DNA of 64,000 nt from Pigmentibacter sp. JX0631 (GTDB taxonomy: Bacteria; Bdellovibrionota_B; Oligoflexia; Silvanigrellales; Silvanigrellaceae): assembly GCF_029873255.1 (NCBI RefSeq), contig NZ_CP123622.1:1700501-1764500 (forward strand). Reading direction: 5' to 3'. Positions 36,393 to 47,250 of the stretch are shown here, in pieces. The number at the start of each line of letters is the position of its first letter. Within the stretch, counting starts at the first letter, position 1. A model generated the notes under the pieces. It ran no database searches. It saw only the letters and a program-made list of their open reading frames with translations, and was not told the origin of the DNA. The position numbers and the translations under genes are program-made.

Positions 36393-37376
36393 CTATATAA
36401 TAAAATAGAAGTAATTATCATCTAAGTTACTGCTCGAATTTTTAAAAGTGAATAAATTATTACTCGTAGCAGATTTAAATTTTAAGATTACTTTATTTTT
36501 TATATTTGTTTCTTTCAATGGAATTAAATTATTTTTTAAATCTTCTGGTATTGTTGAGTGAAAAAAATTTATCACTAAATTATCATTTAAATATTCAAAA
36601 TTTCTATGGATTTTTGAGAAGAAATTTATACAATTTAAATAATCAATAGGCGTTCCGATATCAAACCAGTAATTGTTTTCAGGATAATTAAAATTCATTA
36701 TTTTTAGTTTTTTTTCAAGAATTTTTCTATAAATAAGGTTTATACTAGAGGATTTTTCTATAGAAGTAATTTCTAATATTTTATGTGAAATTATTTGATG
36801 TGTTGTAAAAACAGAAGAAATGCATTCATTTTTATTTATATAGTTTTCTCCAAAACCAACGATATAATTCCCTGTTTTATCCAACCAAGTTGCATCTTTT
36901 CTAGTATAGTTTAGTTTTTTTGTGGCCATTAATGCTAATGATTCAGTTTTTTTTTGCTCCCACTGAAATATCATTTCTTTCAAAGGAAAATCTGCAGCAA
37001 TATCTCCGGATACTACTATTGCATCTCTTTTTAATTTACTGTTTTCTGTTACTTCTTTATAAATTCTAGTGATCCCACCACCTGTATCAAGTAAATCGTT
37101 TTCATGCCAAAATTTAATACAGTTTGAATTATAGCCATGATATTCTGCTGCTTTAATTAATTCTTCTTTCACTTGTTCAGAAAGATAATGAGTATTACAA
37201 TGAATTTCTTTAAATCCGGCTTTTAAAAATATTTCAATTGATAAGAAGGCGACTGGTTTATCGATTATTGGACAAGTTACTTTTGGGAGATAATTTGTCA
37301 ATGGTTTTAGTCTAGTTCCAAATCCGGCACATAAGACTATGGGGATATATTTTTCATTTTCAATTTTATAATTCAT
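36393..37376 (-). CDS. murU: Nucleotidyltransferase, probable N-acetylmuramate-1-phosphate uridylyltransferase
   Basis: A 327-residue sugar-nucleotide pyrophosphorylase. It begins with IPIVLCAGFGTRLKPLTNYLPKVTCPIIDKPV, the family G-x-G-T/R-x-P nucleotide loop with the catalytic Lys, and has LLDTGGGITR and VVSGDIAADF. The gene directly follows an AmgK-like kinase, as murU follows amgK in Pseudomonas, where the pair turns recycled MurNAc into UDP-MurNAc without MurA/MurB. The function is inferred from family plus neighbour; a mannose- or glucose-1-phosphate enzyme is the alternative. The C-terminal 90 residues are Asn-rich and poorly conserved. Confidence 0.68.
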   Translation of the reverse strand: MNYKIENEKYIPIVLCAGFGTRLKPLTNYLPKVTCPIIDKPVAFLSIEIFLKAGFKEIHCNTHYLSEQVKEELIKAAEYHGYNSNCIKFWHENDLLDTGGGITRIYKEVTENSKLKRDAIVVSGDIAADFPLKEMIFQWEQKKTESLALMATKKLNYTRKDATWLDKTGNYIVGFGENYINKNECISSVFTTHQIISHKILEITSIEKSSSINLIYRKILEKKLKIMNFNYPENNYWFDIGTPIDYLNCINFFSKIHRNFEYLNDNLVINFFHSTIPEDLKNNLIPLKETNIKNKVILKFKSATSNNLFTFKNSSSNLDDNYFYFII

Positions 37377-37393
37377 ACTTTACCAAAATAAAC

Positions 37394-38539
37394 CTATTTA
37401 AAATTTTTTATTTTTTCATTTAATATTTCTTCTAGTGAACCATTATATAAATCATAAAGAAGTTTGAATAAATTTGGAAGCATTGCCTTTATATCAGTCT
37501 CTTCGTGAATTTGTGCCTCTTTTGAGCATAAAATACTCAGAGTTTGTCTTACATATCTCAAATAATTTGGTTTATTTTTTTTAGTAGCCAAATATCCAAA
37601 GCTTCCAATTGCTTTAATATTTCTTTGTAATCCCATTAGAAGTAATTCAAGGTTAAAACTTATGCTAGATATATTATTTAAATTATTTTTTTCTCGAATT
37701 TTATTAAGTTTTTCAATATAGTAATCATACAAATGCTTTCTGGTTTTCCAAGTAATTTGTACGTAACTATCCCGTACTAAGCTGACAACATCGTATGCAT
37801 GTGGACCCATTCTCGCATCTTGGAAATCAATCCAGTACAAATCTTTATCTTTTAACATGATATTTCTGACATGATAATCTCTGTGACAAAGTACTCTTTC
37901 ACATGAATCTAATTTTTTGCATAATAATTTTAGGTCTTGATAAAGGTTGATGTACTCAAGATTTTCTTCAGATACATTTAAATTTAAAAAACCATTAAGA
38001 AAATGGGTAATAAAAAAATTCATTTCGTAGTATAATTTTTCATAATCAAAAAATCGATTGATAGCAGGATGATCTATTTTTACTTGAGGATATTGAGCTT
38101 TTATTAAAAGATCTAATGCTTGTTTATAGTAATTTATAGCCTGGTTACATTTATGATCATCAATATCAAGAATTTCATCATTAATAATTGAAGTTAGAAA
38201 TATATCGCCAAGATCTTCAGTCCAAATACATGAATTAGTTTCGTCGATTTCTATAATTTTAGGAACAGGAAGCTCCATTTTTGAAAGGGCGTTGTGCATT
38301 CCAATCCAGCTAATAGGGTCTCCTCCATATCCACCTTCCCATTTAGGAAATTGCATACAAATTGCGCTAATTTCTTTATTTATAAGACGAAAAAACTTTC
38401 TATCACTAGCATCACCAGCAATTAATATAAGAACTGGCTCTTGAATCGTATGTATTTGATCGGAATTTATAATTTTAAAGTCTTGAATTCTAAGCATAAG
38501 CTGTTCCGATTCTAATGGAAGTGTGAAAGTTCCTGACAT
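37394..38539 (-). CDS. amgK: Aminoglycoside-phosphotransferase-fold kinase, probable anomeric MurNAc/GlcNAc kinase
   Basis: A 381-residue kinase of the APH fold. It has GDASDRKFFRL in place of the glycine-rich loop, RVLCHRDYHVRNIMLKD with the catalytic Asp, and YWIDFQDARMGPHAYDVVSLVRDSYV with the metal-binding DFQDA. These blocks match the AmgK pattern (HRDYH, DFQDA, GP-YD-SLLRD). AmgK phosphorylates recycled MurNAc or GlcNAc at the anomeric carbon; MurU next door would then make UDP-MurNAc. AAGGAA precedes the ATG. The gene is divergent from the UvrA-like gene. Confidence 0.75.
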   Translation of the reverse strand: MSGTFTLPLESEQLMLRIQDFKIINSDQIHTIQEPVLILIAGDASDRKFFRLINKEISAICMQFPKWEGGYGGDPISWIGMHNALSKMELPVPKIIEIDETNSCIWTEDLGDIFLTSIINDEILDIDDHKCNQAINYYKQALDLLIKAQYPQVKIDHPAINRFFDYEKLYYEMNFFITHFLNGFLNLNVSEENLEYINLYQDLKLLCKKLDSCERVLCHRDYHVRNIMLKDKDLYWIDFQDARMGPHAYDVVSLVRDSYVQITWKTRKHLYDYYIEKLNKIREKNNLNNISSISFNLELLLMGLQRNIKAIGSFGYLATKKNKPNYLRYVRQTLSILCSKEAQIHEETDIKAMLPNLFKLLYDLYNGSLEEILNEKIKNFK

Positions 38540-38675: not shown

Positions 38676-41159
38676 GTGTCATTTATTTCAGTTCGAGGAG
38701 CACAAGAACATAATCTAAAAAATATAGATGTTGATATTCCTAAAAATTCTTTGATAGCATTTACAGGAGTTAGTGGTTCTGGGAAAAGTAGTTTAGTTTT
38801 TGACACTATTTATGCAGAAGCTTTTAGAAGATTTGTAGATTCAACTCAAGCACCTGTTTACATGCTAGGTGGAGCAAATTGGAGAAAATCAGCTCGTGCT
38901 AAATTTAGTTCGATAAAAGGTCTTCCTCCTGCTCTGGGTTTATCACAACGACAAGGGGTTGCTGGAAAATTATCTACAGTTGGCACCATTATTGGCGTAA
39001 CTGATTTATTTAGAGTTTACTTTGCAGCTTTTGGAGATGTTTTTTGTCATAATTGTGATATTCCTTTAAAATCAATATCATTTCCTGAATTAATTAATAA
39101 AATATTTACTGATTTCTTGAATAAAAAAATTTATTTTATTGCACCAATATGTGAAAAAAGAAAAGGTTCTTTTACTAAAGAAATTGAAAATTTCAAAGAT
39201 TTAGGATACTCTAAATTGAGAATTAATGGTGAAATGTATGATTTGCAAGAAGAGCAAAAAAAATTCAAAATAGATGCAAAAAAATTAAATACTATAGATG
39301 TTGTCATAGATTTTGTTAATATTTCAATAGAAAAAAAATTAAGAATAGAACGTAGTATTTATCAAGCATTAGAGCATGGAAAAGGAATTTTAAAAATAGA
39401 GTATCTAGAGGAACAATATAAATTTAATACTAAATCAAGCTGTCCTCAATGTGGTGAAAGTGCACCAAAACTAGATCCTCGTTACTTTAGCCACTCTTCA
39501 TTGGGTAAATGCAAAAATTGTGAAGGGGAAGGATCTGAAAAAATTGGTTTGCCTTCTGATATATTTCCTTGCAAAGTTTGTCAAGGAAGTCGCTTAGATT
39601 CAAATATTCCTATTGTAAGAATTTGTAATACAACCTTTATGGAACTACATAGAAAATCTTTTCCTGAATTATTTTTATTTGTTTCTACTCAATTAAAAGA
39701 AAATGCTGGAAATGATAAAGCAAAATTAAAAGTATATTTAGAAATTCAGAGACTTTTAAAAAGTATGCATTTACTTACACTTGATCATTTAGTTTTAAAT
39801 CGTTCAGGAAATTCTTTATCACCAGGAGATTTGCAAAGATTACGTCTTGCGTCAATGATTTCAAATCGATTAAAAGGAGTCCTTTATGCAATCGATGAAC
39901 CCTGCCAAGGATTAACTGCGGAAGAAGTTAAGCGGCTAGTTTTTGTGCTGCAAGAACTTGTAAAAGATGGCGCAAGCATAATATCCGTGGAGCACCACCC
40001 TGTATTTTTATCTTTTTGTGAGAAAATTTTTTTAATGGGCCCGGGCGCAGGTGTGCATGGTGGACAAGTTGTATCCAAAGCCACTGCCCCTGAGGGTTTA
40101 GCTGATACATCTTTATCACATAATTATGAAAAAAATTTATCCAAATTTCTACTTCAAGAGCAAGGGACGGAGTTATTATTAAGGAAATCCAAGGGGAGAA
40201 TTTTAAATCAAAATGTTGATAATTCATCTATAAATTCCTCTATTGAAAACTCTTCTATACATTTTTCGGAAATTGCTGTAAGAAATTTAAGTCTGAATAA
40301 AATCTTGATAAAACAAGGTATTATAAACATAATTCGTGGAAAATCAGGTTCTGGGAAGACATCGTTTACTCAACTTTGCCTCATTCCTTATTTATTATCT
40401 CTTGGAAAAATTAATTTAGAGGGGGATGATTTTTCAGATATTCCATACAAACTTTTCTGTAAAGTTAAGGATGAAGGAGATATTTTAGTAAACATCGTAA
40501 GTTATGTTAAGCCGGGGAGTATTACGAGAAGTTCAAAACGTTCAGTGGCTTCTGCATTAGATGTTATTAAACCGATAAGAGATCTTTTTACTAAAATTCC
40601 TGCGAGTCAAATAATGGGACTAACTGAAAGTCATTTTTCTTGGAATTCAAAACTTGGTAAATGTGAATACTGTGAAGGAAAAGGTTATAAAGAATTACCT
40701 CAAAGATACTCTGAACCGGTACGTATAGAATGTGAAAATTGTTTAGGTGCTAAATTAAATCCAAGAAGTTTATTACCAAGATTTAAGGGATTAAATTTAG
40801 CAGATATTATGAATTTAAGCCTAGATCAAGCATTAAATATATTTGAAAATCACAAATTAATTTCATCTAGAATTTTTAAAGCCTGTCAATTTGGATTGGG
40901 ATATGTCAGATTAGGTCAAGGAATGGAAACTTTAAGTGGTGGAGAAGTCCAAAGATTAAATTTGACTCTTCATTTAAAAAGGTCAAATTTGCATGGGGCT
41001 TGGTTTATATTAACTCATCCGAGTACAGGATTACATGCTCCAGATATTGAAATCTTAGGAAATTTAATGAAAGTAATGACATCAAAAGGGGCATCTTTTG
41101 TATTAATAGAAAATAGAGAAGAATTTCTCCCATTTTCACAGCACATAGTGGAATTTTAA
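38676..41159 (+). CDS. UvrA-like ABC ATPase with degenerate second ATPase site
   Basis: An 827-residue UvrA paralogue, shorter than true UvrA (about 940). I start it at GTG 38676, six bases after AAAGGA, giving MSFISVRGAQEHNLKNID. The first half has Walker A GVSGSGKSS, the variant signature LSPGDLQRLRLA and Walker B LYAIDEP. Zinc-finger cysteines are present (CPQC, CKNC, CKVC; later CEYC, CENC). The second half has Walker A GKSGSGKTS and signature LSGGEVQRLNLT, but the Walker B reads WFILTHPSTGLH, with Asp-Glu replaced by Thr-His, and the H-loop reads LIENREEF. It is a DNA-repair or resistance-type paralogue of unknown role, not the canonical UvrA. Confidence 0.8.
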   Translation: MSFISVRGAQEHNLKNIDVDIPKNSLIAFTGVSGSGKSSLVFDTIYAEAFRRFVDSTQAPVYMLGGANWRKSARAKFSSIKGLPPALGLSQRQGVAGKLSTVGTIIGVTDLFRVYFAAFGDVFCHNCDIPLKSISFPELINKIFTDFLNKKIYFIAPICEKRKGSFTKEIENFKDLGYSKLRINGEMYDLQEEQKKFKIDAKKLNTIDVVIDFVNISIEKKLRIERSIYQALEHGKGILKIEYLEEQYKFNTKSSCPQCGESAPKLDPRYFSHSSLGKCKNCEGEGSEKIGLPSDIFPCKVCQGSRLDSNIPIVRICNTTFMELHRKSFPELFLFVSTQLKENAGNDKAKLKVYLEIQRLLKSMHLLTLDHLVLNRSGNSLSPGDLQRLRLASMISNRLKGVLYAIDEPCQGLTAEEVKRLVFVLQELVKDGASIISVEHHPVFLSFCEKIFLMGPGAGVHGGQVVSKATAPEGLADTSLSHNYEKNLSKFLLQEQGTELLLRKSKGRILNQNVDNSSINSSIENSSIHFSEIAVRNLSLNKILIKQGIINIIRGKSGSGKTSFTQLCLIPYLLSLGKINLEGDDFSDIPYKLFCKVKDEGDILVNIVSYVKPGSITRSSKRSVASALDVIKPIRDLFTKIPASQIMGLTESHFSWNSKLGKCEYCEGKGYKELPQRYSEPVRIECENCLGAKLNPRSLLPRFKGLNLADIMNLSLDQALNIFENHKLISSRIFKACQFGLGYVRLGQGMETLSGGEVQRLNLTLHLKRSNLHGAWFILTHPSTGLHAPDIEILGNLMKVMTSKGASFVLIENREEFLPFSQHIVEF

Positions 41160-41285
41160 ATATTTATCCTTGCATTTTTTTCTTAGAAAAAATTTTCCCA
41201 AAAAATATATAACATTACCTTAATAAATTTTTTTTTATATCAACCGAATTTGAAAAAGGAGCAAACTTTTGCTTTAGGAGTTAAC

Positions 41286-42404
41286 ATGCAAAAAGATATT
41301 CAGTCATTTGATGTAAAATATTTAGAAAGTGCATCGAATTCATTTTGGAGAGAAATTAATCCTTCAGCAAAATCTTGTATTTCACTAATTAAATTACTGG
41401 AAATATATGCATCCCATGAAGAGTGGGAAAAAATTATCAATCTATCCTCGAGAGCAGTACTACATTTAACAAAATTTTATGACAGAGCTGATTTTTATCA
41501 TATCTGGATTTGTGCATTGAAAGAAACATTTGATCATGGAGCGTTAATTTCTCTTGGAAAACATTTACTAAAAATGAGAAATTATCATCCTGTTTTCTTA
41601 TCACTGGCACTTATTGCCTTTCATTTTGCATCATGTAGTAAAGTAAGTTTAAAAATATTTAAGTATTTAAGAAATTCTAAAGGAGTTGAAAACAGATTTG
41701 CTTTTGAAGCTTGCGGATTACTATTAGCCTCTTCAAAAAATTCAGAAAATATAAATAAAGGTATTAATTTAATAGAAAAAGTTTGCCAGGACAAAAAAGC
41801 AAGTTACTTTACTTGGAGAAATTACTTAAGAAAACTTTCTGAGAATAATCTAATAGAAAAAATGAGTGAAACTTATAATCTAATTCATGAAAAATTTCCG
41901 TTTGCACAAGAACCCTATTTAGTAGCAGTATTAATATCAATGTATGAAAAAGATTGGAATGAATCAATAAGAATTTTAGGGCAAATTTTGCGGGATAATC
42001 CAAAAAATACGAATGCCATACTTGCGATGGCAGACTGTTACCTTGAAAATGGAGATTTCATAAAATCTTTGAGTCTGCTAACACTAAAAGAATACCTATT
42101 CTTAGATAATGATTTTGATTATCATCTTTTATTAGGTAAATCAATTAAGTACATTATAGAAGGTGAATATGATTCTAATCTTTATGAAACTGCTTTTAGG
42201 CATTTAAATAAAGCTATAGCTATTGCAAAATCCTTAAATTTAAATTCAAGTGAACCTGAAAAAGAAATTCATAGCCTTAAAATTTTAAATAGTATTAACA
42301 CACAGAAAGAAGCAATTATTGAAGAGGACAACATTATTAAAATTCATGCTGAAAATAACGCTATTGATTTGGAAAAAATGTATATAGAAAGAAAAGTTAG
42401 TTAG
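41286..42404 (+). CDS. TPR-like helical repeat protein
   Basis: A 372-residue cytosolic protein predicted to be almost all helical, with repeats of TPR type, the clearest being NESIRILGQILRDNPKNTNAILAMADCYLENGDFIKSLSLL near 230-275. I start it at ATG 41286, five bases after AGGAG, instead of an upstream TTG at 41250. It opens a run of six same-strand genes with a histidine kinase and several receivers, and another TPR protein closes the run, so it is likely a scaffold or output of that signalling system. No enzyme domain is visible. Confidence 0.62.
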   Translation: MQKDIQSFDVKYLESASNSFWREINPSAKSCISLIKLLEIYASHEEWEKIINLSSRAVLHLTKFYDRADFYHIWICALKETFDHGALISLGKHLLKMRNYHPVFLSLALIAFHFASCSKVSLKIFKYLRNSKGVENRFAFEACGLLLASSKNSENINKGINLIEKVCQDKKASYFTWRNYLRKLSENNLIEKMSETYNLIHEKFPFAQEPYLVAVLISMYEKDWNESIRILGQILRDNPKNTNAILAMADCYLENGDFIKSLSLLTLKEYLFLDNDFDYHLLLGKSIKYIIEGEYDSNLYETAFRHLNKAIAIAKSLNLNSSEPEKEIHSLKILNSINTQKEAIIEEDNIIKIHAENNAIDLEKMYIERKVS

Positions 42405-42430: not shown

Positions 42431-44239
42431 GTGATTTTTGAGTTGATTAAATATTTGAAAAACATTAAAAAAAAATATCTTTTAATACCTTTTTTTGTTT
42501 TTTTTCTTTTACTAATAGTAACAATTTACACTTGGAATGAAACAAAAAAAAATAGCTACTATTATTCTTCACTGCAATTTGATGGAATTGCAGAAAAAGC
42601 AAATCTAGCTTTAATCAGTCAAATGTTAGCATATACTCAAGTTTTAATAGGAGCGAAAAGTTTTTTTTATACAAATAATAATAGTGTTACTAGAGAACAA
42701 TGGAAAAAATTTATAGAAAATCTTGATTTACAAAAAAGTTACCCAGGAATTCAAGGGATTGGAATAAATAAATTTGTCAAAAAAAATGAAAAAGAAAACC
42801 ATATTCGTGATATTAGAAGATCTGGTTTTCAAGAATACAATATAAAACCACCTGGAGAAAGGGAAGGATATTTTCCTGTTGTATATATTGAGCCATTTAT
42901 AAATAGAAATATGCGAGCTTTTGGATTCGATGTGTTTTCTGAAACAATAAGAAAAGAAGCTATATTAAAGGCAATAGATACTGGACAAGCTTTTGCAACT
43001 GGAAAAATAACTTTAGTACAAGAAACTGGGAAAGATGTGCAAAATGGTTTTTTGGTATTCTTACCACTGTATAAAAATTATGAAATACCAAAATTAAAAG
43101 AATTAAGAATGGATTCAATTTATGGTCTAGTTTCAGCTGTTTTTAGAATGAATGATTTAATTCAAGGTATATATAGCGAAAAATTTGAAAATTTTAATTT
43201 AAAAATATATGATGGGAATTCAAAAGAAAAAGTAAATCTATTGTTTTCAAATTTAGCAGAGAACTTTAACTCAAAATCTGAATTTAAAAGAGTTTTTATA
43301 GAAGATATAAATAATCACCCTTGGACGGTTGAATTTAGTTCAACAGAAGCTTTCGAAGATTTAACAAAAAGTGGAGTATCACTGCTTTTACTAATTTCTG
43401 GAATAATTTTTTCATTTTTAATTTCAATAATTATTCTTTTTTTAATTAGCTTATTTGAACAAACTAAAACAGTACTCCAATCAAATAACGATTTAAAAAA
43501 TACACAAATGCAGTTAATTCAATCAGCTAAATTTGCCGCTTTGGGTGAAATGGCAGGTGGAGTGGCTCATGAAATAAATAATCCTTTAACTGTAATTAGT
43601 GGTAAAGCGTATAAGTTAGTAAGAATGGCTAAAAAAAATCAGTTAGATATTAATATTGTCGAAGAAAATGCAGTAGCAATAGAAAATATAGTTAAGCATA
43701 TTTCAAAAATAACGCTAGGGCTGTTAACATACTCTAGAGAGTCAGAAGAAGATCAATTAGAATTTGAAGATATTGATAAAATCATTGAACAAGCAACAAT
43801 TCTTTGTAATGAAAAATTTAAAAATAACGGTGTTCAACTTATTATTGCAAAAAATTGCCAAAGTAGTAACATTTATTGCAGTGGTATCCAGATTTCCCAA
43901 GTATTACTAAATCTTCTTAATAATGCATTTGATGCAATAAAAAACTTAAGTAATAAATGGATTAAATTAGATGTTATTGACGATAGTAAAAATATTTTTT
44001 TCCGAGTATCAGATTGTGGCCCCCCTATTCCCGATGATGTAAAAGAAAAAATAATGCAGCCTTTTTTTACAACAAAAAAAATTGGTGAAGGAACAGGCTT
44101 AGGTTTATCAGTTAGTAGAGGAATTATTGAAAAGCATAAAGGGGAATTTTATTTAGATAAAAATGTTAAAGAAACAACATTTGTAATAAAGCTACCAAAA
44201 ATTGCGGAAAAAAATATTAAAATTGAGGATGCTTCATGA
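42431..44239 (+). CDS. CHASE-domain sensor histidine kinase
   Basis: Membrane sensor kinase of 602 residues. Membrane segment 15-34, then a periplasmic CHASE domain (about 45-300; YPGIQGIGINKFV, REGYFPVVYIEPF, GFDVFSETIRKEAILKAIDTG), second membrane segment 316-341, a short coiled coil, HisKA with His380 in LGEMAGGVAHEINNPL, and HATPase with NNAFDAI, DCGPPI and GEGTGLGLS. All kinase boxes look intact. GTG start with GAGG six bases upstream. Its last bases overlap the ATG of the next receiver gene, so the two are translationally coupled and likely partners. CHASE ligands are usually small molecules; this one is unknown. Confidence 0.9.
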   Translation: MIFELIKYLKNIKKKYLLIPFFVFFLLLIVTIYTWNETKKNSYYYSSLQFDGIAEKANLALISQMLAYTQVLIGAKSFFYTNNNSVTREQWKKFIENLDLQKSYPGIQGIGINKFVKKNEKENHIRDIRRSGFQEYNIKPPGEREGYFPVVYIEPFINRNMRAFGFDVFSETIRKEAILKAIDTGQAFATGKITLVQETGKDVQNGFLVFLPLYKNYEIPKLKELRMDSIYGLVSAVFRMNDLIQGIYSEKFENFNLKIYDGNSKEKVNLLFSNLAENFNSKSEFKRVFIEDINNHPWTVEFSSTEAFEDLTKSGVSLLLLISGIIFSFLISIIILFLISLFEQTKTVLQSNNDLKNTQMQLIQSAKFAALGEMAGGVAHEINNPLTVISGKAYKLVRMAKKNQLDINIVEENAVAIENIVKHISKITLGLLTYSRESEEDQLEFEDIDKIIEQATILCNEKFKNNGVQLIIAKNCQSSNIYCSGIQISQVLLNLLNNAFDAIKNLSNKWIKLDVIDDSKNIFFRVSDCGPPIPDDVKEKIMQPFFTTKKIGEGTGLGLSVSRGIIEKHKGEFYLDKNVKETTFVIKLPKIAEKNIKIEDAS

Positions 44240-44595
44240 AGCAAGTATTAATAGTAGACGATAATAAAGATATTGTTGATGTAATTAAAGAAGAATTATT
44301 TGAGAAAAATTTAGTAATAATTACATCAAATAATGGGAAAGATGCATTTGAAATAATAAAAAATAACAGTATTGATTTTGTAATTTCTGATATTAGAATG
44401 CCAGATGGAGATGGTGTAGAATTACTAAGAAATATAAATAGTCTAAAAGATAAAAAACCAAAAATTATATTAATGACAGGTTTTGCTGAGATATCAAAAG
44501 AAGAAGCTTTAAAAAATGGATGCTATGCATTTTTAAAAAAACCACTTGATTGGGAAGAACTTTCAAACCTTGCAGATAAATTGCTGAAAGAGTAG
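44236..44595 (+). CDS. Stand-alone response regulator receiver (CheY-like)
   Basis: A 119-residue single receiver domain: VDDN with Asp8-Asp9, phospho-acceptor Asp52 in ISDIRMPDGDG, MTG switch Thr and KKP with the conserved Lys. There is no output domain, so it must act through protein contact or as a phosphotransfer step. It overlaps the histidine kinase gene by four bases and is the probable first target of that kinase. Confidence 0.9.
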   Translation: MKQVLIVDDNKDIVDVIKEELFEKNLVIITSNNGKDAFEIIKNNSIDFVISDIRMPDGDGVELLRNINSLKDKKPKIILMTGFAEISKEEALKNGCYAFLKKPLDWEELSNLADKLLKE

Positions 44596-44599
44596 AATT

Positions 44600-45316
44600 A
44601 TGAGTGATTTTAAAACAGTTGTTATAGCAGATGATGTACCTGATATTCGTGAATATCTGAAAGATATTGTCGAAGAAATGGGGTTAACTACTATTTGTTG
44701 TGCAACGGGAAAGGAGCTAGTAGATGTCATAAAAAATGAAAATCTTACAAAAGATCTTATATTTTTAGATCTTTCTATGCCTGAAATGAATGGGTTAGAA
44801 ATTTTAAAAATAATTCCAGAATATAAACAAAAACAAAAATTTAAAGTATGTGTTTTAAGTGGTCATAAAGAACAAAAAATAATTGACAAAGCATTGGAAT
44901 TAAAAATTGATGACTATATCTCTAAACCATTTGATAGAGATATTTTAATAAATAGAATTAGAAATTTACTGGGAATAGACAAATCTTCTATAGTAACCTT
45001 TGCCTTTGCTAAGGTAGAATTTAAATGCAAAACTTTAAATTTACCTGCTGTAATTGAATTTTCTTTAGTGGGTTTGTCTGAAGAAGGGACTATAATAGAA
45101 AGTCCAGTTAATTTTAAAGAACAATCTATTCTTTCTTTTTCTTGTAGTGAATTGCATAAAATTGCTAATATGCCAAAGGATGATTACAAAATAAAAGTTA
45201 TGAAATCTGCATTAAAAAAAGACAATATTTATGAGGTCACAACGGTATTTGTAAGTATGCCAGAATTTGTTGCGCAAAGAATCAGGTCATTTGCAATAAA
45301 AAATGTAAAAGTATAG
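44600..45316 (+). CDS. Response regulator with C-terminal PilZ-like domain
   Basis: A 238-residue protein with a full receiver (Asp11-Asp12, phospho-acceptor Asp57 in FLDLSMPEMNG, SKPF Lys) and a C-terminal domain of about 105 residues that begins FAKVEFKCKTLNLPAVIEFSLVGLSEEGTIIES. The latter has the beta-rich, S-x-x-G feel of PilZ domains but lacks a clear RxxxR c-di-GMP motif. The output is therefore unsure. It is four bases behind the single receiver, in the same operon. Confidence 0.75.
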   Translation: MSDFKTVVIADDVPDIREYLKDIVEEMGLTTICCATGKELVDVIKNENLTKDLIFLDLSMPEMNGLEILKIIPEYKQKQKFKVCVLSGHKEQKIIDKALELKIDDYISKPFDRDILINRIRNLLGIDKSSIVTFAFAKVEFKCKTLNLPAVIEFSLVGLSEEGTIIESPVNFKEQSILSFSCSELHKIANMPKDDYKIKVMKSALKKDNIYEVTTVFVSMPEFVAQRIRSFAIKNVKV

Positions 45317-45325
45317 GATTATTTT

Positions 45326-46042
45326 GTGAGAAATGATAAATATATTTACATAATTGATGATAATGATGAGTATTCTCTATATTTAAAAAAACTTCTTGAA
45401 AATAATGGTTACAATTGTATTCTTTTTAAAGATCCTACAGAATTTTTTTATGAGCTAGAAATTAAAATAATTAAACCAGATGTTATTTTAATTGACTTAT
45501 CAATGCCTGAAATAAATGGTTTAGATATAATAAAATATTTGAATTCTAGTAAAACCCTAAAAAAATTAAAAAAAGTAATTGTTAGCGCTAAAACAGATTT
45601 AATGACTAGAGATGAATTTAAAGACATAACTTTTCTCTCTAAACCAATTAACGAAGATAATTTTATAAATAAAATTGATAATATGACATTAATTAAAAGA
45701 GAAAATATAAAAATTATAGAAGAAAGTAGTAGAGAGTGCCAAATATTTTGTTTTTTAGAGAGTTCTTCATTTTACAGTAAAATTGTTATAACTAAAATGT
45801 TTCCTAGTAAAGTTGAATTTTTATCTGACATCAAATTTCACTTTGGAGCAGAATTAAAATTTCATTCAAGATCATTTTTTGATATAACAGGAGTTAGTTG
45901 TGATTTTAAAATAAAGATTAATCAAATAAAAAAAAGAGATGAAAAATATATTTGTGATGGAGAACTTATTTTTGAAAATAAAAATGATTATGAAAAAATC
46001 AGTAATTTTATAAATGCTAAAAATATTGGTGTTGCTTCATGA
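45326..46042 (+). CDS. Response regulator with divergent C-terminal beta domain
   Basis: A 238-residue protein with the same layout as its upstream neighbour: receiver (Asp11-Asp12, phospho-acceptor Asp57 in LIDLSMPEING, Lys in SKPI) and a C-terminal domain of about 105 residues. The C-terminal sequence (SKIVITKMFPSKVEFLSDIKFHFGAELKFHS) is quite different from the neighbour but probably of the same fold. The equal length and order suggest an old gene duplication. GTG start with AGGA upstream. It overlaps the next gene by four bases. Confidence 0.7.
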   Translation: MRNDKYIYIIDDNDEYSLYLKKLLENNGYNCILFKDPTEFFYELEIKIIKPDVILIDLSMPEINGLDIIKYLNSSKTLKKLKKVIVSAKTDLMTRDEFKDITFLSKPINEDNFINKIDNMTLIKRENIKIIEESSRECQIFCFLESSSFYSKIVITKMFPSKVEFLSDIKFHFGAELKFHSRSFFDITGVSCDFKIKINQIKKRDEKYICDGELIFENKNDYEKISNFINAKNIGVAS

Positions 46043-47250
46043 GTGATATTGAAAAACTCAGTATTCTTTTAATTGATGGAAATTCTGAAAATAGAAGTTA
46101 CTTCTCCATGTTTTTTTCTAATTTAATAAACAAATATAATTTTATAACTGCAGAAAATATCCAAGAAACACAGATGGTGATTAATGCAAGTAAATTAGAT
46201 GAGATTCATTTTGTCATTTTAAATAGTCAATCTAATGAATCTATTCTATGTACAGCATTGACTATTCTAAAAAATCACCCTTCTTCTTTACTTGCAACAA
46301 TTATAGTAATTTCTGATAATTTAGATAAAGAAACAGAATTTTTATTAGGAGAGTTTTCAGTAGCAAAAATATTTGCACAAGACTTTGATGCGCAAGACGT
46401 TATTAATTTAATAGAAAAGGGTTTTGAAGAGAAAAACAAAAACTTATTATTCAAAGATGAGTTAGGAAAATTCTGTCAAGCTGTTTTAGCAAAAGATATT
46501 TCTACATGCTCAACACTTTTAGAGAGTAAGAATTTTTCAAAAATTGTAATGAACTCTATCGAAACAATTCATTACTATGGAGAATATTTAATTCTAATTG
46601 GAAAGTATGATCAATGCATAGAGGAAATGGAATTATCTTTAGCAACAATAAATGAAGGAGATATTAATAATTTTCAAATATCAAATATTTTAAATTGCAA
46701 AGCAAAAGCATTGTGTTTATGTAATCAATATGATGATGCTTTAAAAATTTATCAAGAAATGTCTGAAAAAAGTCCTAAAAATTTAAATCACAAAATTAAC
46801 TTAGGTTCTGTTCATGTTGCCAAAGGAAATTGGAAATCAACTATAGAAATTATTGACAATGTATTAAAAATAGATCCTAAAAATAAAAATGCAAATTTAT
46901 TAAATGCTCAAGCATATGCTGGTTTAGGTGAAATTGAAAATGCAAATTTATTTTTGGAAAAAGTTGCTGGAACTATAGAATTCCATTCAATAGCAAGTTT
47001 TTTTAACAATCGAGGGGTTGCTTTTGCACAAAAGAAAGATTTCAAAAAAGCTTTAGAATTTTACAATAATGCGTTATTTTTTACAAAAAACGATATACAT
47101 AAAATTCAGTTTAACATTTCTCTTGCATTAAAAAAGCAAGGAAAATTAAAAGAAGCTGGAAAAATATTAAATAAAATTAAAAATACAAAATTTTATAAAG
47201 AAAAAATTAAAAGCAGTAAAATAGAAGTAGATAGTTTTGAAAATTTATAG
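46039..47250 (+). CDS. Pseudo-receiver-TPR protein
   Basis: A 403-residue protein with an N-terminal receiver-like domain and C-terminal TPR repeats. The receiver-like part has LSILLIDGNSENRSYF (only one of the two acidic residues), and the phospho-acceptor position reads FVILNSQSNES, with Asn62 where Asp is expected, so it probably cannot be phosphorylated. From about 190 on, TPR units are clear (YDDALKIYQEMSEKSPKNLNHKINLGSVHVAKGNWKSTIEIIDNVLKIDPKN, then FNNRGVAFAQKKDFKKALEFYNNAL). It closes the signalling operon and may act as adaptor. Its end overlaps the SurA-like gene by six bases. Confidence 0.75.
   Translation: MSDIEKLSILLIDGNSENRSYFSMFFSNLINKYNFITAENIQETQMVINASKLDEIHFVILNSQSNESILCTALTILKNHPSSLLATIIVISDNLDKETEFLLGEFSVAKIFAQDFDAQDVINLIEKGFEEKNKNLLFKDELGKFCQAVLAKDISTCSTLLESKNFSKIVMNSIETIHYYGEYLILIGKYDQCIEEMELSLATINEGDINNFQISNILNCKAKALCLCNQYDDALKIYQEMSEKSPKNLNHKINLGSVHVAKGNWKSTIEIIDNVLKIDPKNKNANLLNAQAYAGLGEIENANLFLEKVAGTIEFHSIASFFNNRGVAFAQKKDFKKALEFYNNALFFTKNDIHKIQFNISLALKKQGKLKEAGKILNKIKNTKFYKEKIKSSKIEVDSFENL

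Follow-up and report, generated by a model that had tools for sequence, protein, structure and literature searches.

A conserved UvrA paralogue of the Silvanigrellales with one degenerate ATP site and no insertion domain

The forward strand of the window (the whole 64,000-nucleotide stretch of Pigmentibacter sp. JX0631 DNA analysed here, to which coordinates without a contig label refer) carries at 38676..41159 a gene for an 827-aa UvrA paralogue, termed type C below, in which the motifs of one of two ATPase sites are heavily altered. The question raised by this locus is what such a lopsided UvrA could do, and with which partner. A first-pass annotation had described the asymmetry as unusual and had proposed a regulatory or DNA-clamp role; that account stands in part, having overlooked that the insertion domain is gone, that the genome has no canonical UvrA and that a second paralogue, termed type B, co-occurs.

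Identity, domains and setting of the type C protein

The assignment of this protein to UvrA rests on sequence and on predicted fold. Its 11 top sequence matches are UvrA chains, and the predicted structure (pLDDT 82.5, pTM 0.77) retrieves UvrA in all of its top 39 fold matches, the best being 3uwx_A (E 1.8e-60); two NBDs, the UvrA zinc modules and the UvrA fold, which define the UvrA-type ABC ATPase superfamily, are all present. The frame opens with GTG at 38676, a position at which Met is aligned in three orthologues (L006, L015 and L024). The score of 541.5 bits lies below the NCBIfam UvrA equivalog cut-off of 729.8, and by the features tested the protein appears to be a UvrA by descent that belongs to none of classes I, II or III. 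Its nearest relative overall (L006) is 89% identical, and the closest named relative found, Spirobacillus cienkowskii, matches the protein at 63% identity. All 15 genomes of the order Silvanigrellales (hereafter the order) retain the gene, G001 as an N-terminal fragment at a contig end; counts for the order refer to the 14 full-length orthologues, S. cienkowskii included and the G001 fragment left out.

The domain make-up is distinctive. The UvrB-binding domain (Pfam UvrA_inter, residues 138-244, 39087..39407) is matched at 80.2 bits against a cut-off of 23.3 and is found in 29/29 type C proteins, while the insertion domain (UvrA_DNA-bind), which in E. coli UvrA serves damage recognition (PMC3025350), has no match in the Pfam scan of the protein. 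The place from which it is missing lies between C282 and C299 (39522..39569), within a second zinc module whose Cys pairs are spaced 20 residues apart, start to start, in 14/14 order members and 20-41 in type C proteins of other orders, as against 110-139 in canonical-type and 110-123 in type B comparison rows. The third zinc module (C663, C666, C686 and C689; 40662..40742) is intact and invariant in alignment A1.

Altered domains are also found in class II UvrA paralogues, and C might on that ground be taken for a DNA- or drug-lesion-binding ATPase akin to the resistance proteins Ecm16 and DrrC, with no part in repair. Class II proteins, however, are described as being without the UvrB-binding domain and as needing the insertion domain for DNA (PMC10192343), the reverse of the arrangement in C, and in Pfam and NCBIfam scans the nearest neighbours are cell-wall-recycling-like, TPR and sensor-kinase genes, with no biosynthesis or efflux gene among them. 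We regard this reading as very improbable, and class II identity as such was rejected on the presence of the UvrB-binding domain.

The surroundings of the locus are themselves conserved in the order, with divergent sugar-kinase and nucleotidyltransferase genes upstream and a TPR gene downstream in 11/12 neighbourhoods compared, and are absent in both genomes fetched from other orders (n=2). The TPR-repeat gene (41250-42404) follows C on the same strand and is matched at 23-90% identity in those 11 of the 12 order neighbourhoods, with no match seen at the G014 locus; it is a possible operon partner of C. Beyond it, a block comprising a CHASE-domain sensor kinase and a response regulator (42431-47250) is present in G002; G006 lacks it and has the homologue of the gene at 47245 immediately after the TPR gene (L120 vs L121). 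The divergent pair upstream (36393-38539) resembles MurU (74.5 bits, cut-off 250) and AmgK (99.2 bits, cut-off 550); with scores far below these equivalog cut-offs, it may represent a diverged cell-wall-recycling pair or belong to some other sugar pathway.

State and conservation of the two composite ATP sites

ATP sites in UvrA are composite: the proximal site combines ATP-binding motifs of half I with signature II, and the distal site those of half II with signature I (PMC6486640). Read in this way, the motifs singled out by the first-pass annotation, all of which we confirmed, sort into one intact and one degenerate site. The proximal site of C is fully consensus, comprising Walker A I (GVSGSGKSS, 31-39; 38766..38792), the Q-loop Gln91 (38946..38948; invariant in A1), the Walker B Asp-Glu-Pro (407-409; 39894..39902), the switch His440 within VEHH (438-441; 39993..39995), signature II (LSGGE, 753-757; 40932..40946) and the adenine-contact Gln. 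At the distal site every motif is altered, with two residues excepted: the Lys of Walker A and the Arg that stacks on adenine. These two residues, Lys561 of Walker A II (GKSGSGKTS, 555-563; 40338..40364) and Arg376 (39801..39803; five residues before signature I, its role as given in PMC6486640), are retained in 14/14 order members. Around them, the Walker B Asp-Glu is replaced by Thr780-His781 (in FILTHPSTGLH; 41013..41018), the switch His by Asn813 in an H-loop that reads Glu-Asn-Arg (812-814, in LIENREEF, 810-817; 41109..41117), the Q-loop Gln by Pro613 (40512..40514), and signature I reads LSPGD (381-385; 39816..39830), its first Gly having become Pro383 and its Glu Asp385.

Since the sites are composite, the LSPGD change falls in the same distal site as the loss of Walker B II, and the idea of signature I as a separate second lesion was rejected. 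It had been proposed that Walker A and signature of the second half remain; this holds for the half as a linear stretch, but its ATP site is completed by the first signature, which is altered, and the Q-loop Gln of that site is lost as well. By its motifs, then, the protein would have one dead (distal) and one intact (proximal) site, and the earlier expectation of binding without hydrolysis at one of them is borne out to the extent that motifs can predict it.

These replacements are largely fixed. Glu to His, switch His to Asn, Q-loop Gln to Pro and the first signature Gly to Pro are each seen in 14/14 order members, and the signature Glu is Asp in 13/14. The suggested Thr-His motif is conserved in its His and not in its Thr, the Walker B Asp position being occupied by Thr in six of the orthologues, Met in four, Val in two, and Leu and Phe in one each. 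In 6/14 the Walker A II Ser/Thr after the Lys is also replaced, by Gly or Ala; the window protein keeps its Thr. Outside the order, a joint alignment (14/15 order type C genes, 24 of about 40 from other orders, 38/51 type B genes, and canonical-type rows made up of 13 genes of the class and four named ones, the short L155 and L156 being left out) shows the distal catalytic Glu retained in 24/24 type C proteins of other orders, 38/38 of type B and 17/17 of canonical type, and it is missing in 0/49 other UvrA units from named genomes, in keeping with the earlier impression that the asymmetry is unusual. (The 267-aa fragment L024 and L037, the same gene as L018, were excluded from some alignments and trees, and L011, a near copy of L010, from alignments A1 and A2.) With the Asp-Glu kept in 0/14 members of the order, and Glu in 24/24 and Asp in 22/24 type C proteins outside it, the distal-site loss is a lineage-specific, conserved replacement within the order. 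A local mutation or sequencing error, which the first-pass annotation had named as the outcome that would undo its reading, is ruled out by the fixation of the changes in all 14 order members.

The other orders are part-altered already: the Q-loop Gln is Arg in 24/24, and 10/24 have lost the first signature Gly and 3/24 the switch His, which argues for a stepwise weakening of the distal site in type C proteins, of which the order would thus represent the end state. Such partial losses could also be expected if the second site were simply eroding under neutrality. Against this, the same substitutes stand fixed even in sequences that share as little as 45% identity, and the order has retained the gene throughout, with a single fragment among its 15 genomes. 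In addition, dN/dS against L006 is 0.05 for half II and 0.08 for half I, and half II gives 0.19 against L007 and 0.16 against L008, ratios that are rough because synonymous sites are near saturation; values this low (0.05 against L006) argue against decay of half II. Neutral erosion accordingly retains the slightest of chances, and pseudogene decay was rejected on the range of 0.05-0.19 over the three comparisons.

The invariance of His781 in 14/14, as if the residue were functional, invites a further proposal, that slow hydrolysis persists at the distal site, with His781 or a nearby residue standing in for the catalytic Glu. We consider this improbable, for the site has also lost the Q-loop Gln, the signature Gly, the switch His and the Asp that binds Mg, and in 6/14 the Walker A Ser/Thr. 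From the motifs, loss of distal hydrolysis in C is the deduction we adopt. The pattern is that of degenerate-site ABC proteins: the Walker B Glu and the partner signature are altered in one site and the other site is canonical in 14/14, and the altered residues are conserved across orthologues.

A separate observation concerns an insertion-less UvrA from a Planctomycetia MAG (L083:349-3012), in which the distal signature reads LPDGV and the H-loop END, with the Walker B DEP kept; perhaps this is an independent start of distal-site loss.

UvrA complement of the class and kinship with tandem UvrAs

The host genome, a single contig of 3.65 Mb, encodes UvrB, UvrC and Mfd, each of which exceeds its curated cut-off (1038.6, 474.1 and 963.8 bits, respectively). 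The search for a canonical uvrA proposed at first pass found none over the 729.8-bit cut-off in this genome, types B and C being the only UvrAs found. Type B (L035:5196-7973) is a 932-aa frame scoring 635.5 bits, likewise below the UvrA equivalog cut-off, and its gene is not adjacent to that of C, lying about 0.24 Mb away. The UvrA set of S. cienkowskii also consists of B and C only. Across the class (n=58 genomes, the same 58 that make up the phylum-level sample), canonical UvrA occurs in 17 genomes, type B in 51 and type C in 55, with 48 genomes having both B and C; in the good-quality subset (n=39) the corresponding figures are 11, 36, 38 and 35, presence and absence having been read by eye from bit scores and tallied by script. 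One genome of the order's 15, G009, has a canonical UvrA (L151:550-3411; 1354 bits). B occurs without C in three genomes (G035, G040 and G041), and C with no B found in G020, G046, G048 and G055, with G001, G032 and G057 doubtful; since genomes with one of the two exist, the pair is possibly not obligate, unless these assemblies are incomplete.

Type B proteins keep all catalytic residues of both sites (38/38), and carry UvrA_DNA-bind in 13/16 and the UvrB-binding domain in 16/16, the latter being weaker in the host genome's copy (26.7 bits). A predicted model of B (pTM 0.54) was used for no claim. B is not unchanged in the order, where 14/14 have lost the Gln that contacts adenine and precedes signature II, Gln being present in 23/24 elsewhere; this change is in the proximal site, opposite to the site of the type C changes. 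Both paralogues lie on stretched branches there, the ratio of order-class to class-class tree distance being 1.95 for C and 2.09 for B, compared with 1.35 for UvrB, computed over the 30 genomes for which C, B and UvrB sequences were all available.

The kinship of the two paralogues was approached through trees that included class III UvrAs, in which two units are joined in tandem. A FastTree LG tree places B and C next to each other as basal long branches; because long branches are in play, mixture-model trees (13 C, 12 B and 6/53 tandem proteins) are preferred. In the careful mixture-model tree, B clusters with the tandem N-terminal halves (97/92), and C lies opposite, in a group (86/96) that also takes in canonical UvrA, the C-terminal halves and three single proteins that have no insertion domain. 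A grouping of C with the C-terminal halves alone is weak, reaching 83 in the quick tree and not recovered as resolved in the careful one. A recent duplication giving rise to B and C inside the class was rejected, the two standing apart in the better-modelled trees, though B and C as a single clade are not rejected by the AU test (p-AU 0.072). Common ancestry with the class III proteins is likely for B and may or may not hold for C. In domain content the resemblance extends to both: among 14 of the 53 tandem proteins, examined as split halves (L099 did not split), 11 have the insertion domain in exactly one half, and nine of these have it in the N-terminal half with the UvrB region in both. From this matching make-up, B plus C looks like a two-gene class III UvrA.

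A possible division of labour, and its parallels

Engineered E. coli UvrA provides the analogy on which a functional proposal can be built. The E858A mutant, dead in distal hydrolysis, is efficient in recruiting UvrB whether or not damage is present, but it binds DNA excessively and is defective in NER. K646A, in which distal ATP binding is blocked, can no longer recognize damage, and the release of UvrA has been proposed to depend on hydrolysis at the distal site (PMC5007444). The regulatory or DNA-clamp role suggested at first pass is compatible, by analogy, with these distal mutant data. In transporters, too, degenerate sites are conserved, and they are believed to keep ATP bound (PMC7756269).

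The reading that we favour, at a probability of roughly 0.5, is that C is an insertion-less, UvrB-binding UvrA whose distal site holds nucleotide and does not hydrolyse it, whose proximal site works, and which probably acts in repair as a B:C heterodimer. The distal composite site (Walker A and B of half II with signature I) would keep ATP parked, and the proximal one (Walker A and B of half I with signature II) would carry out turnover and recruit UvrB; C, if it behaves like the E. coli distal hydrolysis mutant, would stay tightly on DNA, be poor at letting go, and need help for both lesion sensing and release. B, with its insertion domain and intact distal site, could supply the two functions, and the heterodimer would then be a two-gene counterpart of the class III tandem UvrA. 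A joint machine is favoured because B has both items that are missing from C. Against the proposal stand the distance between the two genes, the genomes with only one of the pair, the repair defect of the E858A mutant, which predicts a similar defect for C by itself, and the UvrB-binding domain of B, with which B could act alone.

The main rival to this proposal dispenses with the heterodimer. It holds that C is a homodimeric UvrA dedicated to transcription-coupled repair, brought by Mfd to stalled RNA polymerase, with B serving global repair; because Mfd would deliver it, C would need neither the insertion domain nor the distal ATPase, and could do with its proximal site and the domain that binds UvrB and Mfd. 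The losses in C are exactly these two, with UvrA_inter kept, and insertion-less E. coli UvrA is reported to retain Mfd-dependent repair (PMC3025350). On the other hand, engagement of UvrA with the Mfd-RNAP complex is reported to depend on the distal site (PMC7835731), and Mfd does not track C, occurring in 51/56 class genomes, the three without C among them. The presence of Mfd in the host genome over its cut-off fits a B/C machine and the transcription-coupled alternative alike, and we hold the latter to be unlikely.

A bolder form of the B:C heterodimer reading, which we advance tentatively and with some doubt, is that in the order a two-gene heterodimeric UvrA has replaced canonical UvrA, in which B would sense lesions through its insertion domain and cycle its distal site, and C would bind UvrB/Mfd and cycle its proximal site only, the distal site of C serving as a permanent, ATP-held joint. 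If true, this would be a bacterial UvrA that is heterodimeric by nature, with functionally unequal subunits, and would give DNA repair its own version of the asymmetric ABC proteins of the CFTR/TAP type. The roles of UvrA's two ATP sites are still debated and have so far been probed only by engineered mutants, while here a predicted "hydrolysis-dead" distal form has arisen by evolution and been kept across an order, alongside loss of the insertion domain. Should C act in repair, nature would have set up a test of two questions: whether a subunit can manage with a single hydrolysing site, and whether UvrA can work as a heterodimer. In the portions of the open-access literature covered, we found no natural degenerate-site UvrA and no two-gene UvrA, a weak negative, and no report on a Silvanigrella UvrA.

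Of the systems already described, the canonical UvrA of class I (E. coli; G. stearothermophilus, 2R6F and 3UWX) shares with C the fold, domain order, UvrB-binding domain, zinc modules and an intact proximal ATP site; C differs in being without the insertion domain and, at the distal site, without the Q-loop Gln, the Walker B Asp/Glu, the switch His and a consensus signature. In the laboratory mutants E. coli E858A and G. stearothermophilus E854A the distal Glu is gone and the proximal site intact, as in C (PMC5007444, PMC6486640), but C is natural and conserved, carries four further distal motif changes and has no insertion domain. Class II UvrAs (Ecm16, 7SH1; D. radiodurans UvrA2, 2VF8) are, like C, UvrA paralogues with a domain deletion, though of the opposite kind, the UvrB-binding domain being lacking and the insertion domain kept. 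Class III tandem UvrAs (e.g. L045 from Limnobacter and L048 from a Betaproteobacteria MAG) combine one unit with and one without the insertion, like B plus C, in a single polypeptide rather than two genes, of which C, at 827 aa, would correspond to one unit; the distal catalytic Glu, lost in C, is kept in every tandem unit examined. The asymmetry of the ATP sites has a parallel outside DNA repair, in the ABC exporters, where it is well known: in CFTR, TAP and Pdr5 the Walker B, signature and H-loop of one composite site are altered and conserved in that state, and the other site is canonical, as in C (PMC7756269). The exporters differ in that their sites form between the two NBDs of one dimer, whereas a UvrA monomer has two sites of its own and acts on DNA.
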